From positions 1 to 42,013 of the IMG/VR virus record IMGVR_UViG_3300025154_000198: 42,013 nt of DNA, one strand, 5' to 3'. Each line of letters starts with the position of its first letter. Position 1 is the stretch's first letter. Source of the stretch: a virus. Positions 15,173 to 42,013 of the stretch are shown here, in pieces. Position numbers and translations under genes: made by a program. Under the pieces are notes generated by a model that was not told where the DNA came from, searched no databases, and was given only the letters and a program-made list of their open reading frames with translations.

Positions 15173-16738
15173 TTAATAATTTACTACAGTTCCTTTCATT
15201 ATATTAAAATCTACAGCTTTGTAAAATCCTGACTTCGGTGCTCTCATTTCAATGTAATGTAGAGCCATCATAAAACTTGAGAACTGGTCATTCTTTATTT
15301 TAACATCATCCTTACTAGCAATTTCAAGTTGTCTGCGTAGTCCGGTAAGTTTTGGAGATGCTTTTATGCCTCCCCAATCTTTATTCTTGTCAACTATCAG
15401 ACCATTTTCCCCAACTATAAAGTCCCTTTCTCTACCCAAAACCTCTTTAACTTTACCCATTCCCTCAGCTTTTATTTCTGCGTAACCCCTACCTTTTGGT
15501 GGGAAAGGATAACCATGTAATTCTTTGAAAGCATCCTCCGCATTTTTTCCTCCCAAACTTCCTGCATCATAAATGAACTTGGTTCTTGCGGGAGAAACCC
15601 GGTGGAATTTGTTGAACATTTCCTTAATCATCTCGTATTGAACCGAGAGTGGTAGGGACTCACCCTTCCAGGCTTTATGAAAAACAACCCGGTGGGGATG
15701 TTGTTTGAACTTTCCATCTTCAAGTTTAGTCCTTAAATTATATCTAATGCAAGTAACGGAAGTTTCATCTTCACTTGCAGCCAGGTCTGTAGCAAAAGCG
15801 TAGTATCCGTTTTCTTCCGGTTCTTCACAAAAGCCCGATTCTTGGTCATATTCTAAATCGCTTCTAAACATCTGAGCAATTTCCTCCCAAGAATATAAAT
15901 GCTTTGCCCAATCCACATATTGTCCGTAAATGATTTGCTTACGAAGTTCCGGATCTGCAATCGCTTCAATTTTTCTGATAGAATCTCCCGGCATAAATTC
16001 ATTCGTATAAACTGAAGCCATCTCCGGATTCGTATTTGCGGATATAATAAAATACTGATCCCGATCTTCCTCCGCATCCTCCGCAATCTCCTCATACTCA
16101 ACACCTTTGGGTTGGGAAGTCCCAACTAAATCTACCGAACCCTGAAAGAAGAAAAGACGAGGGAGCATAGTTCCGTTTAAGAAAAGCTTTAGATCGGGAA
16201 TATCTCCGCACTCATCAGCCGAGATAAATGCGAGTCGTAGTCTTTTGAACGCTTCCCCAAGTCCGTCAAAAGATCTGATCAAAGTCCGGGAGTGATTCCA
16301 CCAAGCGATCTGGGGAAGTTTCGGGGGAGCATCCCAAACCTCTTTAATAGCCCACCCCCGGAGTAAAGATTTGTTATATTGCCCTGTAGGTAGAAGATAC
16401 TTTCCCTCTGTAATGTCCACAGCCTGTTCCAAAACTCCCCGGGCAATCTCGTAGGTTTTACCCACATTCAAAGTCCTGTAATCAAACCGCATCCTATCCT
16501 CCAGAGTCATGTCAAAGCGGTCAAGTTGAGGCTTAGTTACTGCGTGAAAGACATGTTTAATTGCTTCAGCCGTAGTCTTTCCCCATTGGTTAGCAGGTTT
16601 TAGGACATTGATTGGTTTAGTAGAATTTCTTAGCCAATACTTCTGACCTTCGTGAAGGTGCATCCCGAGAACATCCTCCGCAAAAGCAACAACATCCCGA
16701 GTGGTTATAGCAGTCTGAATATCATATGGGTTAATCAT
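15173..16738 (-). CDS. terL: Terminase large subunit
   Basis: About 521 aa from ATG 16738, chosen because GGGGAG lies 10 nt upstream; a TTG eight codons earlier keeps the same frame. The ATPase has a Walker A variant ANQWGKT (about 49-55) and a Walker B RLAFISADE (about 168-176). The nuclease part has YYAFATDLAASEDETSV and KFIYDAGSLGG with the expected acidic residues. It packages DNA into the prohead through the portal. The first 8 nt overlap the end of TerS. Confidence 0.95.
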   Translation of the reverse strand: MINPYDIQTAITTRDVVAFAEDVLGMHLHEGQKYWLRNSTKPINVLKPANQWGKTTAEAIKHVFHAVTKPQLDRFDMTLEDRMRFDYRTLNVGKTYEIARGVLEQAVDITEGKYLLPTGQYNKSLLRGWAIKEVWDAPPKLPQIAWWNHSRTLIRSFDGLGEAFKRLRLAFISADECGDIPDLKLFLNGTMLPRLFFFQGSVDLVGTSQPKGVEYEEIAEDAEEDRDQYFIISANTNPEMASVYTNEFMPGDSIRKIEAIADPELRKQIIYGQYVDWAKHLYSWEEIAQMFRSDLEYDQESGFCEEPEENGYYAFATDLAASEDETSVTCIRYNLRTKLEDGKFKQHPHRVVFHKAWKGESLPLSVQYEMIKEMFNKFHRVSPARTKFIYDAGSLGGKNAEDAFKELHGYPFPPKGRGYAEIKAEGMGKVKEVLGRERDFIVGENGLIVDKNKDWGGIKASPKLTGLRRQLEIASKDDVKIKNDQFSSFMMALHYIEMRAPKSGFYKAVDFNIMKGTVVNY

Positions 16739-17291
16739 CTTTGACAATCTCCCCTTCCTCAATCGCCTGAGTCGTTTCCATTTTGATTATTTCAAACCCG
16801 CAATTAGGACAATGTGTTGGGGGAAGCTTTCCGTTAAATAAGCGATTAATAAGTTCCATTGCCAAAGTGTTTTTACTCTTAGCCTCCTCCTGTTTAAGCT
16901 GAAGTAATTGGGCTTGGTAGAAGTCGTAGAACTTGAAGTCATCCGGATATTTAAGCATCTTCTCAAAAACCTTTACGGCAACCATCCGACTAATTTCAGA
17001 TATATCTTTCTTCCCGGTTTTGAGATCTTCCAGGAACTGCTTTTCGGTGTCTGATAATTTCTGAGCCTTCTTAACAGGTTTTGCATTATACGGTTGCACT
17101 ACCCGATTAGTTACAATCTCCCCACTCTTAACTTTCTTATTTAGGTTGTGATAAAGTCCCCAAGCACTCATCCCTGCCTTCTTAGCATACTTAGTTGCGG
17201 TTTCAAAAGCCCCTACCTTCTTAACTGATTCTTCTATTTCCTCACGCAAAGATACAGGCAAAGACTTATATATGGGTTTAGGCATTGGCAT
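16731..17291 (-). CDS. Terminase small subunit (TerS-like)
   Basis: A 186-aa protein just upstream of TerL. Residues 25-65 (GAFETATKYAKKAGMSAWGLYHNL) look like a helix-turn-helix, as expected for the DNA-recognition end of TerS; the middle is helical, and the C-terminus carries a CPNCGF half zinc knuckle. It should choose the packaging site. The ATG (17291) falls 7 nt after the -10 box of the promoter at 17298-17331, with no room for a Shine-Dalgarno site, so the mRNA appears leaderless. The word-like region starting at 17332 may hold its binding site. Confidence 0.8.
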   Translation of the reverse strand: MPMPKPIYKSLPVSLREEIEESVKKVGAFETATKYAKKAGMSAWGLYHNLNKKVKSGEIVTNRVVQPYNAKPVKKAQKLSDTEKQFLEDLKTGKKDISEISRMVAVKVFEKMLKYPDDFKFYDFYQAQLLQLKQEEAKSKNTLAMELINRLFNGKLPPTHCPNCGFEIIKMETTQAIEEGEIVKDD

Positions 17292-17297
17292 AGACTT

Positions 17298-17331
17298 AGT
17301 ATTGACTTAGGTAATGCCCATGTCAACTAGA
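17298..17331 (-). promoter_or_regulatory. Leftward late promoter before terS
   Basis: On the minus strand TCTAGTTGACATG gives TTGACA at 17321-17326, a 17-nt spacer, and AATACT at 17298-17303. The first base of the terS ATG lies 7 nt after the -10 box. This predicts transcription from the A of the ATG. It heads the packaging and structural gene run. Confidence 0.65.
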
Positions 17332-17865
17332 TGAGAAAAGCCTTAGCCTTGAACATGGGGGATGAGCATAGCCTTGGGGATTGATACTGCCCTGGGTTTG
17401 GGAAGGTAATGACATAATACGGCAATGCATGGGCATAGCATTGAGCTATACCTACCCTCTAGCTGTGATTATTGGAAACGCAAAGCCTAAGCCATTGGTC
17501 AAGGTCAAGCCTAAGCCATAGCCTTGCACTGATCATGGTATATATCATGGTCATGATCATGGTCATGGTCATGGTATAGATCATAGTCATAGCTAAGGCT
17601 TAGCTATAGCTATGATCATGATCAAGGTCATAGCATTGGCAATGCCTTAGGCTAAGTGCTAAGTCTAAGACATGACTATGGGGACTATACAGTATCAAGG
17701 CTATGCCATTGGTCATGTTATTAACTAAGATCAAGGTCATGATCATAGGTCAAGGCATAGGCTAAGGCATTGATCAAGGGCATGAGCTAAGGCTAAGACA
17801 TAGATCAAGGTCATGATCATGATCAAGGGGGTAAGACATAGCAATTACTAAGGATATAAACGAAG
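17332..17865. repeat. Word-like low-complexity region between divergent arms
   Basis: About 530 bp without a credible gene, built from short words of the form C-(A/T)2-3-G in both orientations: CATG, CAAG, CATAG, CTAAG, CTATG, CTTAG and CATTGG, joined by AT, GT or G. The densest part (17525-17640 and 17725-17830) has runs such as CATGATCATG and GGTCATGGTCATGG, many GATC sites (about eleven in 300 bp) and many CATG sites. Homopolymers longer than four are nearly absent. It is unlike the rest of the genome. It may be a replication origin, a TerS packaging site, or a binding array. Confidence 0.75.
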
Positions 17866-17886
17866 CCGGGACATTACAATGCCCGG
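17866..17886. promoter_or_regulatory. Bulged hairpin upstream of the early promoter
   Basis: CCGGG (17866-17870), a bulged A, then CAT pairs across a TACA loop with ATG and CCCGG (17879-17886). It lies about 90 nt before the rightward early promoter. It may be an operator or a structural mark at the edge of the word-like region; no T-run follows. Confidence 0.4.
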
Positions 17887-17974
17887 AGCAATACTTATAC
17901 AATCCCGGTGCAAGTAAATGACTATTGACATAGCAATAATTATAACCGAGAATAAAGACAATACACTTCAATAA

Positions 17975-18003
17975 TTGTTAATACTTGACAATAGGTGTAT
18001 AAT
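17975..18003 (+). promoter_or_regulatory. Rightward early promoter (leaderless)
   Basis: TTGTTA (17975-17980), a 17-nt spacer and a perfect TATAAT (17998-18003). The ATG of the SprT-like gene begins 7 nt after the -10 box, so the transcript should start at the start codon. A nearby TTGACA at 17986 is too close to the -10 to pair with it. Confidence 0.7.
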
Positions 18004-18009
18004 AAAATT

Positions 18010-18450
18010 ATGAGAATTAAGGACACTATAAAACTAGCCCATGATCTGATGAAACTGCACAACTTGACTGATTGGTCATTTGAGTTTGACTATTCGGTAA
18101 GGCGTTTCGGGTGTTGCCATTATTCAAAAAAGAAAATAACACTCTCAAGAGAACTAACACTATTAAATGACGGAGCAAGAGTTAAAAATACAATACTTCA
18201 CGAAATAGCCCACGCCTTACTACCGAAAGGAATACATCATGGAAACGAATGGAAACAAAAGGCTATATCAATCGGGTGTGATGGTCAAAGATTGTATCCA
18301 AATAATGTATTAAAACCAAAATATAAGTATATAGCGACCTGTAAAAACTGCGGAGATATTAGCCATTACAACAGAAAAAGAAAATTATCATGTGGAAAAT
18401 GTAGCCCACGATTTAACAAAAAGTATTTACTAAAATTCAAACTACTATGA
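18010..18450 (+). CDS. SprT-like zinc metalloprotease
   Basis: A 146-aa protein, first gene of the rightward arm. HEIAH (64-68) is the zinc-metalloprotease HExxH motif, followed by HHGNEW (76-81) with the third ligand, then a C-terminal zinc ribbon (C111, C114, C128, C131). This matches the SprT-like domain, related to Spartan, which cuts proteins bound or crosslinked to DNA. The start is ATG 18010: it follows the TATAAT box by 7 nt, and an upstream in-frame GTG falls inside the promoter. A role in clearing host DNA-bound proteins is inference. Confidence 0.85.
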   Translation: MRIKDTIKLAHDLMKLHNLTDWSFEFDYSVRRFGCCHYSKKKITLSRELTLLNDGARVKNTILHEIAHALLPKGIHHGNEWKQKAISIGCDGQRLYPNNVLKPKYKYIATCKNCGDISHYNRKRKLSCGKCSPRFNKKYLLKFKLL

Positions 18451-27887: not shown

Positions 27888-28179
27888 AACAACAATGGTT
27901 AGGGTTCATAGGAGCAAACTACTCTCAACAGAGTCAAACTGTATTGAGTGTGGCAATCCTTTCAAGGTTTCTATTGAGGAATATGGGCGTTTCAAGGATA
28001 AAAAGATTCCGCTTCCTACTAGATGTAAAGCCTGTAGAAGGTATAAACTAATAGAGATCAAGCTCAAGAAAATAACCAAGTTACTTTTCAATATATTAGA
28101 AAATACCAGAGGCAAAAAACATGAATATAAATTATCGCAGAAGCCGAGCAAGGGAATCACAACTCAAACTCAAACTTGA
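27859..28179 (+). CDS. Zinc-ribbon protein
   Basis: A protein of about 106 aa from ATG 27859, with GGCGGGTGA upstream; a GTG four codons earlier lies inside that site. CIECGNPF (about 28-35) and RCKACRRY form a four-Cys ribbon with the spacing seen in small nucleic-acid-binding ribbons. A basic C-terminus follows. It overlaps the nuclease gene start by 59 nt. Confidence 0.65.
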   Translation: MEKPIKITTETTMVRVHRSKLLSTESNCIECGNPFKVSIEEYGRFKDKKIPLPTRCKACRRYKLIEIKLKKITKLLFNILENTRGKKHEYKLSQKPSKGITTQTQT

Positions 28180-28501
28180 GAAGGAAGGCTATTACGCTAT
28201 TAGAGCTGCCGGAAGCAAAGGAATAGCAGATGTTATAGCAATTAAACCTGCCGATTGTGGGAACGCTTCTCACTTTGAAGTAAGGTTTTTGCAGGTAAAA
28301 GTATCTGAAAATCTCCGTCAGTTTCAGCACCTCTATGTAGTAACCGATTCTCCTTGCGGTGAGATAAATGTTGAATTTTTGAAATATCCTGTAAAATCTA
28401 GAAAATGGCATGAACATACACGATCACTTAAAAAGCGGGACTCAAAGAGGTCAAAGAGGAGGTTACAATCACCCAAGCCAACAACAAGGGTGGAAAGATA
28501 A
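28121..28501 (+). CDS. Hjc-like Holliday junction resolvase
   Basis: A 126-aa protein. The pattern RRSRARESQLKLKLEKEGYYAIRAAGSKGIADVIAI followed by FLQVKVSE is the PD-(D/E)XK fold of archaeal-type Hjc resolvases: E12, D37 and Q58-x-K60 (Q in place of E). These enzymes cut four-way junctions during recombination and before packaging. The C-terminal 35 residues are very basic. AGAGGCAAAAAAC precedes the ATG. Confidence 0.7.
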   Translation: MNINYRRSRARESQLKLKLEKEGYYAIRAAGSKGIADVIAIKPADCGNASHFEVRFLQVKVSENLRQFQHLYVVTDSPCGEINVEFLKYPVKSRKWHEHTRSLKKRDSKRSKRRLQSPKPTTRVER

Positions 28502-29021
28502 TAGCTATCACCCTTCACGAACTCTTGAGGAAGCCAATTATCTTGATGATGCCACATATAATGATCGTTTAGGAGTCCACAATCCCCTGTGGCGTTATAT
28601 TATAACAACCTATACCACAGAATCTGATGCTCCACTTCTTGTCATTGGCTATGAGGCTCTGCCTCTTGCCATTGAACTTTCCGAATGGACTTACCCTGTT
28701 AATGTCATTGTCAAAAATGAGGAGGAAAGAAGTCGTGCCAAAAGAGATGCAGAAAGACAAGCGGGGTTCTTCAAAAAAATAATGTTAGATGGAGAAGGTT
28801 TCCCGGCAAGTAGAATCGCAATCTTCATTGGAATCATAGATCATTGGGATGATCATAATGCTGAAAGCTATGTCAATCATCTATTGGAGGGGGTGAATGA
28901 AGTAGTTTGTGCAGTCAAACCAAATAGGGACTGGCGAGGTGTATTTGGAAAAAGAATTGAAAATGTATTAAGATATAATAGAGGTCAATGGATGCTATTA
29001 AGAATTAAGAAAAATGCTTAG
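28410..29021 (+). CDS. Rossmann-like protein, unknown
   Basis: A 203-aa protein. SDAPLLVIGYEALPLAIELSEWTYPVNVIVKNEEE looks like a Rossmann beta-alpha-beta start, and the C-terminal part (VNEVVCAVKPNRDWRGVF, RGQWMLLRIKK) like the last strands of a methyltransferase-type fold, but the glycine-rich SAM loop is not clear. The first 40 residues are Gly/Gln-rich and overlap the resolvase gene by 92 nt, so a later start is possible. Confidence 0.5.
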   Translation: MNIHDHLKSGTQRGQRGGYNHPSQQQGWKDNSYHPSRTLEEANYLDDATYNDRLGVHNPLWRYIITTYTTESDAPLLVIGYEALPLAIELSEWTYPVNVIVKNEEERSRAKRDAERQAGFFKKIMLDGEGFPASRIAIFIGIIDHWDDHNAESYVNHLLEGVNEVVCAVKPNRDWRGVFGKRIENVLRYNRGQWMLLRIKKNA

Positions 29022-41076: not shown

Positions 41077-41960
41077 GGATCAAAAGTCTTGTAATTTTCC
41101 CGATACCATTCTATTGCTTCTTTCATTCCTTCTTCCAAACCAATCTGAGGTCTAAAACCTAGTAATTGGCAGACTGGAGCTGGATCTGCTAATGTAACAG
41201 AATTTTCAGGTTCACCCATTCGCATAGGTTGATTTACAAGTTTTGATTGACTTCCGGTTAATTTGATTACCAATTCAGCAACCTCTTTAACTGTAACAGG
41301 AATCCCTGTTCCTCCATCAATTGCTTTACCCCAACAATTATCTTTCTCAAAAGCTCTAATCATGATCTCTGACAAGTCTTTAGCATGAACCATATCAACA
41401 ACTTGATTTCCAGTTCCGTTCAAAACAATATCTACATTATCCAAAGCTCTAGTAATAAAAGTAGGAGCAATTTTTCTTATCTTCTTCCAATGTTGTCTTG
41501 CTCCATACGCATTTAATCCTCTGACTACAGCCACCTTCATGCCATATTCTTTGGCATACATAAGGCAGAATTTAGTCGCTGCCCTTTTCGTGATCGTGTA
41601 GGGATTTAGCCATTTGTTTGTCAGGCTGCAATAAATAAATGGAACATTATACTTTTTAGCCACATCCAGGGCGTTAATAACTCCCTTAATATTGACATCA
41701 ATAGCATCATGTATCCTGCCGAAAGTTTCAGCAGTTCCAAGCACTCCGGAACAATCAAAAATTACATCCGGCTTAAATTCATTAACAACCAAATCAATAT
41801 CCTCAATTTTACCCACATCAGTTTTTATAAAGTTTCCTTTCCATTCAAACCCTTCAGGTTGCTTTACATCTGCTATAGTAGTTTCATAACCTTTGGCTAG
41901 TAATAATTCAGCGAGATGACCACCAATAAAACCACTTCCTCCGATAACAATTGCTTTCAT
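41073..41960 (-). CDS. NAD-dependent epimerase/dehydratase (SDR)
   Basis: A 295-aa extended SDR. GGSGFIGG (7-14) is the NAD-binding loop, FDCSGVLG lies near the cofactor, and S112 with Y121-x3-K125 (YTITK) is the catalytic set. VVRGLNAYGARQHW is the family's substrate loop. It turns an NDP-hexose into another one (epimerase, dehydratase or reductase; which is not clear). AAGAAGGTGATTAGAAA precedes the ATG. Through the circle it follows the cupin gene at 94-465. Confidence 0.92.
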   Translation of the reverse strand: MKAIVIGGSGFIGGHLAELLLAKGYETTIADVKQPEGFEWKGNFIKTDVGKIEDIDLVVNEFKPDVIFDCSGVLGTAETFGRIHDAIDVNIKGVINALDVAKKYNVPFIYCSLTNKWLNPYTITKRAATKFCLMYAKEYGMKVAVVRGLNAYGARQHWKKIRKIAPTFITRALDNVDIVLNGTGNQVVDMVHAKDLSEIMIRAFEKDNCWGKAIDGGTGIPVTVKEVAELVIKLTGSQSKLVNQPMRMGEPENSVTLADPAPVCQLLGFRPQIGLEEGMKEAIEWYRENYKTFDP

Positions 41961-42013
41961 TTTCTAATCACCTTCTTTCTCATTTTTTTTCTATCTCCCA
42001 ATTAGTAAACTCA
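41887..42013. repeat. Terminal direct repeat, right copy (circular overlap)
   Basis: Identical to positions 1-127. Here the epimerase gene is complete, so this copy is the one to keep when the genome is written as a circle. Confidence 0.95.

Follow-up and report, generated by a model that had tools for sequence, protein, structure and literature searches.

It is not yet understood how small terminases locate a pac site when its sequence offers no clear motif. In this work, we ask what function could be served by an array of short, degenerate words that lies between the two divergent arms of a phage genome, beside a presumed small terminase gene. The window, by which we mean the whole stretch of DNA that was analysed, is an IMG/VR viral record of 42013 bp.

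Word Content and Periodicity of the Array

The array of C-W2/3-G words with a period of 6 bp occupies positions 17332-17865 and was delimited by word coverage, periodicity, a hexamer scan and the absence of an open frame. A previous inspection of the letters, the sequence-only reading, had described this stretch as consisting almost only of such short words. The word-like array was indeed present: we counted 11 GATC, 15 CATG and 2 CATGATCATG sites as well as 63 overlapping C[AT]2-3G words (118/kb vs 22.7/kb in the rest of the window). The words cover about half of the stretch and not nearly all of it, since coverage was 0.537, compared to 0.161 (sd 0.032) in order-1 Markov copies. Coverage rose to 0.66 in the best 300 bp of the array, while the maximum elsewhere in the window was 0.32 and the highest value among 398 other loci (3.36 Mb) was 0.51. 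The proposed check for k-mer and word enrichment thus placed the array words well above both the Markov copies and the rest of the genome. The lowest 5-mer diversity of the genome per 400 bp was also found in the gap with the array (182 vs 293, sd 17).

The period of 6 bp is a strong feature that had been missed before. Autocorrelation gave z = 9.0 at lag 6, with harmonics at 12, 18 and 24. Four-letter words (CATG, CTTG, CAAG) are combined with 2-base joints and five-letter words (CTTAG, CTATG, CTAAG, CAATG) with 1-base joints, and for this reason word starts lie 6 bp apart. This start-to-start step occurred 37 times in the window and 30 times in the nearest relative, L002. The core of the array is at 17480-17865, and its best single unit is GGTCAT on the + strand. 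Out of 700 hexamer units, GGTCAT was the top tandem consensus in the window and in L002 alike (scores 92 and 134, against 25 for a control stretch). The array has a strand polarity, with a GG-rich + strand and a CC-rich terS strand. At a lower level, the word content extends to about 17280, across the terS promoter spacer into the start of terS (ATGCCAATGCCTAAACCC).

The array had been thought to lack exact tandem repeats. This did not hold, as Tandem Repeats Finder gave scores >50 at 17530-17590 and 17545-17575. Direct duplications exceeded the expectation from the word grammar in the window and in L002 (longest 19 and 20 nt, p ~0.01), and inverted repeats showed no excess in the two arrays.

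In agreement with the view that the array codes for nothing convincing, none of its frames was open with translation table 11 or 4, and neither a leader nor an RBS for a reading frame was found. Changes from G to A relative to GGTCAT were equally frequent at the two G positions (17 and 17), as expected of non-coding DNA. Single-strand folding was strong when compared to dinucleotide shuffles (z about -6) but not when compared to unit shuffles (z of -1.3 and -1.8). The palindromes and hairpins are therefore by-products of the words, and a specific hairpin or a structured RNA or ssDNA element was rejected, as there was no folding beyond the word content.

Genome Organization, Promoters and Neighboring Genes

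The ends of the record overlap by 127 bp (1-127 and 41887-42013), which corresponds to a circular assembly of about 41.9 kb. The record is classed as linear despite this complete circular assembly; end overlaps are also present in the relatives G054 (127 bp) and G001 (133 bp). With regard to headful packaging, the overlap indicates a circular assembly, which is also compatible with a terminally redundant phage. With few exceptions, the genes of the structural arm run leftward from 17291 across the origin of the record and then from 42013 to about 29150, and those of the early arm run rightward from 18010 to about 29020. The array is located in the divergent intergenic gap between the arms (17292-18009). 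No other non-coding gap of the genome is as large; a mechanical gene model gives it 703 bp. Its position between the divergent arms and beside a terS-like gene had thus been described correctly.

A presumed late promoter (TTGACA-N17-AATACT) is found on the minus strand at 17298-17326, and a presumed early promoter (TTGTTA-N17-TATAAT) on the + strand at 17975-18003. The -35 boxes of these two promoters flank the array, whose end is within about 50 nt of the terS ATG. The hexamers and the spacing of the late promoter are both kept in L002, where the spacer is again built of array words. Consensus matches were near shuffle level (4 found vs 3.2 in shuffles), and the conserved terS promoter is therefore the stronger of the two assignments. 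For both divergent first genes (starting at 17291 and 18010), the -10-like box ends 6 nt before the ATG, pointing to leaderless mRNAs. Judged from these boxes, the array would fall outside both transcripts.

The presumed terS gene (16731-17291, minus strand) is directly upstream of the gene for the terminase large subunit, TerL (15173-16738, minus strand; phrog_2, E 3.1e-13). Its product has an N-terminal three-helix HTH-like domain (about residues 10-58; AF2 pLDDT 80-89 for residues 11-60), a helical middle part and a C-terminal Cys pair. It had no significant family match by sequence and no significant match in the PDB, either with Foldseek or with a profile. The best structural matches were homeodomain-like HTH proteins with a Z of 4.7 in the VIA list, in which TerS folds did not occur, so that the list does not speak against a TerS fold. 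From synteny and architecture we infer that this gene codes for TerS.

On the other side of the gap, the first early gene of the window virus codes for a SprT-like protein (18010-18450, + strand; PF10263). The adjoining early genes are not conserved, and TerS was the only conserved HTH gene found next to the gap. The end of the early arm (28121-29021, an Hjc-like resolvase and the next gene) was found in G001, G054, G055 and G056, while the genes beside the array are variable.

The Same Place Is Occupied by Different Words in Several Related Viruses

Scans with single proteins and narrow TerL/TerS profiles retrieved only L002 and a fragment of the same virus. All remaining relatives came from IMG/VR with profiles of the major capsid protein (MCP) and a profile of four TerL sequences. 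No TerL match was obtained in GenBank phages or among 49 distant MCP relatives, and the MCP of the window is about 29% identical to that of Pagevirus. The members of the group are tailed phages with genomes of about 41-45 kb that assemble as circles. TerL identity to the window was 86% for L002, 65% for G054 (L492), 63% for G055 (L493 and L494), 49-50% for G001, 47% for G056 (L496/L498) and 42-44% for G002. The TerS proteins of G001 (L486:941-1396) and G002 (L489:1402-1881) are missing the N-terminal HTH-like domain; the C-terminal part of the G001 protein is still 39% identical.

The sequence-only reading had suggested a comparison with related phages, in which the array might turn out to be missing or to be an assembly artefact. 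Neither was the case. L002 carries an array of the same grammar, which is largely rearranged and shares the hexamer GGTCAT. One and the same sibling array was recovered in two separate metagenome assemblies (L493 and L494), and together with the array of L002 this ruled out an artefact. Some homology remains between the arrays of the window and L002 (local score 90 vs 64.7, sd 6.1, in unit shuffles). For the terS-proximal stretch, the local score was 62 (vs a unit-shuffle mean of 22.0, sd 3.8), and local alignment identified a non-word island on the minus strand at 17390-17457 (GGGTAGGYATAG..CATTACCTTC.CAAA.CC) that can be aligned with L002.

Low-complexity words are present in the gap of the window, L002, G001, G054 and G055, but the words differ. 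The dialects of G054, G055 and G001 are AGAATA/AATAAG, GGGTAA with TTACTC, and the 8-bp word TAAGGGAA, the last of these with an exact 24-bp tandem and a near-exact 15-bp tandem. Periodicity was weaker in these three viruses (z 3.6-5.6), and the gaps of G056 and G002 showed almost no array and almost no periodicity. In every complete genome examined, the gap in question is the largest non-coding one (703, 1115, 891, 751 and 899 bp). Another stretch in G055 (about 3626-4100 in L506) is extremely repetitive, with 97 different 5-mers per 400 bp, and has the appearance of a coding repeat of short peptides, for example WVYGNA/RVSGNA.

Predicted Bendability and the HTH-Like Domain of the Presumed TerS

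Bendability was predicted with provisional values of a trinucleotide scale derived from DNase I cutting. In the window, the array exceeded all other parts of the genome in bendability at each size between 100 and 500 bp (z 5.7-7.2). The gap held the bendability maximum at all window sizes also in L002 (within 7.7 kb), G054 and G055, with z values at 200 bp of 6.3 for the window, 6.0 for L002, 4.5 for G054 and 4.0 for G055. In G056 the gap held the maximum at 100-300 bp, and its z of 3.4 at 200 bp is inside the baseline range. No maximum was located in the gap of G001 or G002. The baseline consisted of 51 loci from distant relatives. None of their maxima was located in a gap of at least 300 bp, no z exceeded 3.9, and the 29 gaps of at least 300 bp all stayed below a z of 4.

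The mean bendability of the gap was largely explained by dinucleotide content (order-1 Markov z 1.2), which shows how bendability arises and not whether it matters. Under a crude model of random decay, the changes from GGTCAT kept bendability better than expected in the window (0.0267 vs -0.0033, sd 0.0059, z 5.1), and the same model gave z 3.0 for L002.

In all five viruses with a bendability maximum in the gap, TerS carries the N-terminal HTH-like domain, and in the two viruses without the maximum this domain is missing. The correlation is imperfect when the array itself is considered, as G001 has an array without HTH and G056 an HTH without array (n = 7). We regard this co-occurrence, seen in seven viruses, as no more than suggestive.

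Related Hexamers in Small ORFs of Other Viral Contigs

A first pattern scan for similar arrays in other viral contigs gave 56 matches out of 120, compared to 6 of 120 with a complement control. The matches were mostly small (Ser-X)n ORFs. A virus-wide class of non-coding arrays was therefore discarded, and the matches are no evidence for the element of the window. These ORFs have a leader of about 8-14 residues followed by (Ser-X)n, in which X is mostly Trp, Arg or Gly; they are built of GGTC(A/T)N hexamers and are often tandemly duplicated (L084:3304-4711, L050:1450-3200, L067:2085-3523, L044:1552-1843, L147:12797-13103, L132:5450-8100 and others). Of the 101 arrays tested, 86 contained an ORF that starts with M and has 15 or more Ser-X. 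The third base of the Ser codon hardly varies, nor does the GG of X, which confines variation to one base per hexamer.

On their 5' side, the (Ser-X)n ORFs often directly adjoin a small gene for about 87-125 aa, of which several kinds were seen (for example L106:4848-5114, L052:11813-12076, L142:9244-9507 and L513:2405-2698, the last in GenBank MW202825), with motifs such as YIYTGKLVGVND..VKLE.A.IVYETG..KDAQPLPNDWYV..IESFG. These partner genes had no Pfam match and at most one weak PHROG match, and in MW202825 both the partner gene and the (SX)n ORF are without annotation.

Candidate Functions of the Array

We favor the view that the array is a non-coding cis element in a divergent promoter hub, namely a pac region that is recognized by shape, as in SPP1/SF6, and is renewed by short duplications. 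Based on the present computational analysis, we give this reading a probability of about 0.4. What we computed for the array are its position and non-coding state, its period and duplications, the change of dialect and the predicted bendability. Three traits of this type of pac were found: the position at the promoter and start of terS, with TerS assigned by synteny; direct repeats without sequence conservation among relatives; and DNA that is predicted to be unusually bendable. TerS may bind to the array and packaging may start there, with selection possibly acting on bendability. It counts against this reading that in some other phages the pac site lies within terS.

In a possible mechanism, a ring of TerS subunits, each with an N-terminal HTH, would wrap the array by many weak and nearly sequence-independent contacts. 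Specificity could come from closely spaced flexible steps (CATG, CTAG, TCATGA), with G/C joints between them at intervals of 6 bp. The array would be renewed by duplication of short segments and would diverge by point changes and one-base indels. Lineages would thus drift to their own word dialects, with position, short period and usually bendability being kept. A further-reaching version assumes a mechanical rather than a letter code, in which a fast-changing array lets its words drift by lineage but keeps its flexible steps, and co-evolves with the DNA-binding domain of TerS up to its own loss along with the domain. This version appears doubtful to us.

Among the alternatives, a neutral slippage satellite is the least unlikely. 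The gap would be little constrained beyond its two promoters, and words would expand from a lineage-specific seed and decay. Segmental duplications, dialects that are unrelated between lineages, the near absence of an array in G056 and G002 and a folding that is wholly explained by word grammar all fit this explanation. It agrees less well with the retention of a 0.7-1.1 kb gap at one position in every complete member examined, with words that diverge yet keep bendability, and with a grammar shared by the window and L002 though the arrangements largely differ. A replication origin, with the words as degenerate iterons for a phage initiator and with unwinding in the adjacent A+T-rich stretch toward the early arm (about 17900-18010), is less probable still. 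SPP1 oriL and oriR have direct repeats and an A+T-rich flank (PMC6316719), and the cumulative GC skew of the record, a check put forward with the sequence-only reading, turns at the divergent point that holds the array. However, the skew tracks gene direction here and hence provides no independent evidence. Furthermore, no DnaA box with up to 1 mismatch was present at 17156-17993, the searches of early proteins recognized no initiator, helicase or primase, and none of the early genes that adjoin the gap is a conserved DNA-binding gene.

A phage or host architectural protein that polymerizes on the array and controls the flanking early and late promoters would resemble p6 of phi29. This protein recognizes a pattern of sequence-dependent bendability, contacts the DNA at 12-bp intervals (2 x 6) and has a role in the early-to-late switch (PMC10899789). 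The array of the window reaches both promoters, and its words continue across the terS promoter spacer. On the other hand, no p6-like gene was recognized in searches that were not directed at one, and the early arm is not conserved while the element is. We consider such a switch improbable. Even further down is a decayed (Ser-X)n small-ORF array, for which we see very little chance. The consensus GGTCAT is common to several of these arrays, whose hexamer GGTC(A/T)N is related. Against this origin speak the lack of an open frame, leader and RBS, the equal G-to-A counts, the frequent frame-breaking steps of 5 and 7, and a site that is not beside the conserved partner gene. The least credible of all is the methylation-controlled switch suggested by the sequence-only reading. 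It could draw on the 11 GATC sites in 534 bp, but the nearest relative L002 has 5, so that a dense GATC cluster is not conserved, and GATC is absent from the dominant words of the other dialects.

That reading had listed an origin, a pac site, a methylation switch and a DNA-condensing array. Of these functions, a pac region or another shape-recognized nucleoprotein site is best supported: what the relatives have retained is a repetitive stretch at this place, in most cases a bendable one, and not its sequence. The element is conserved, yet by sequence comparison alone it would pass for unconserved filler. As the relatives offer one place with repeat-rich, mostly bendable DNA of unrelated words and a TerS with or without HTH, shape recognition becomes directly testable.

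Comparison with Known Systems

A partial literature search for intergenic hexamer arrays of phages retrieved nothing relevant. The (Ser-X)n small-ORF arrays share a related hexamer, direct tandem arrangement and strand polarity with the array of the window, but they are open frames with an RBS, a leader and a conserved neighbor gene. The nucleation regions of phi29 p6 are likewise bendable DNA without fixed sequence; in contrast to the array, they lie at the ends of a linear protein-primed genome. With the SPP1 origins and other iteron origins, the array has in common direct repeats near an A+T-rich stretch. It differs in that no initiator was recognized, the repeats are highly degenerate and the dialect is not conserved among relatives.

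The SPP1/SF6 system provides the closest reference for the pac reading. Its pac spans the promoters and the start of terS, and the direct repeats differ between the two phages (PMC4737164). In the model for this system, the TerS protein (G1P) acts as a ring of weak HTHs that chooses bendable DNA without local sequence specificity, with one DNA-binding domain covering 3-5 bp (PMC4737164). Whereas this pac has a few boxes, the array comprises half a kb of degenerate words with a 6-bp period and is in a divergent intergenic position, and the presumed TerS of the window matches no TerS family by sequence. Like the SPP1/SF6 pac, the array spans the terS promoter and start, has direct repeats that change between relatives and is predicted to be bendable, and for the presumed TerS of the window an N-terminal three-helix HTH-like domain is predicted, the kind of domain that the SPP1/SF6 protein carries.
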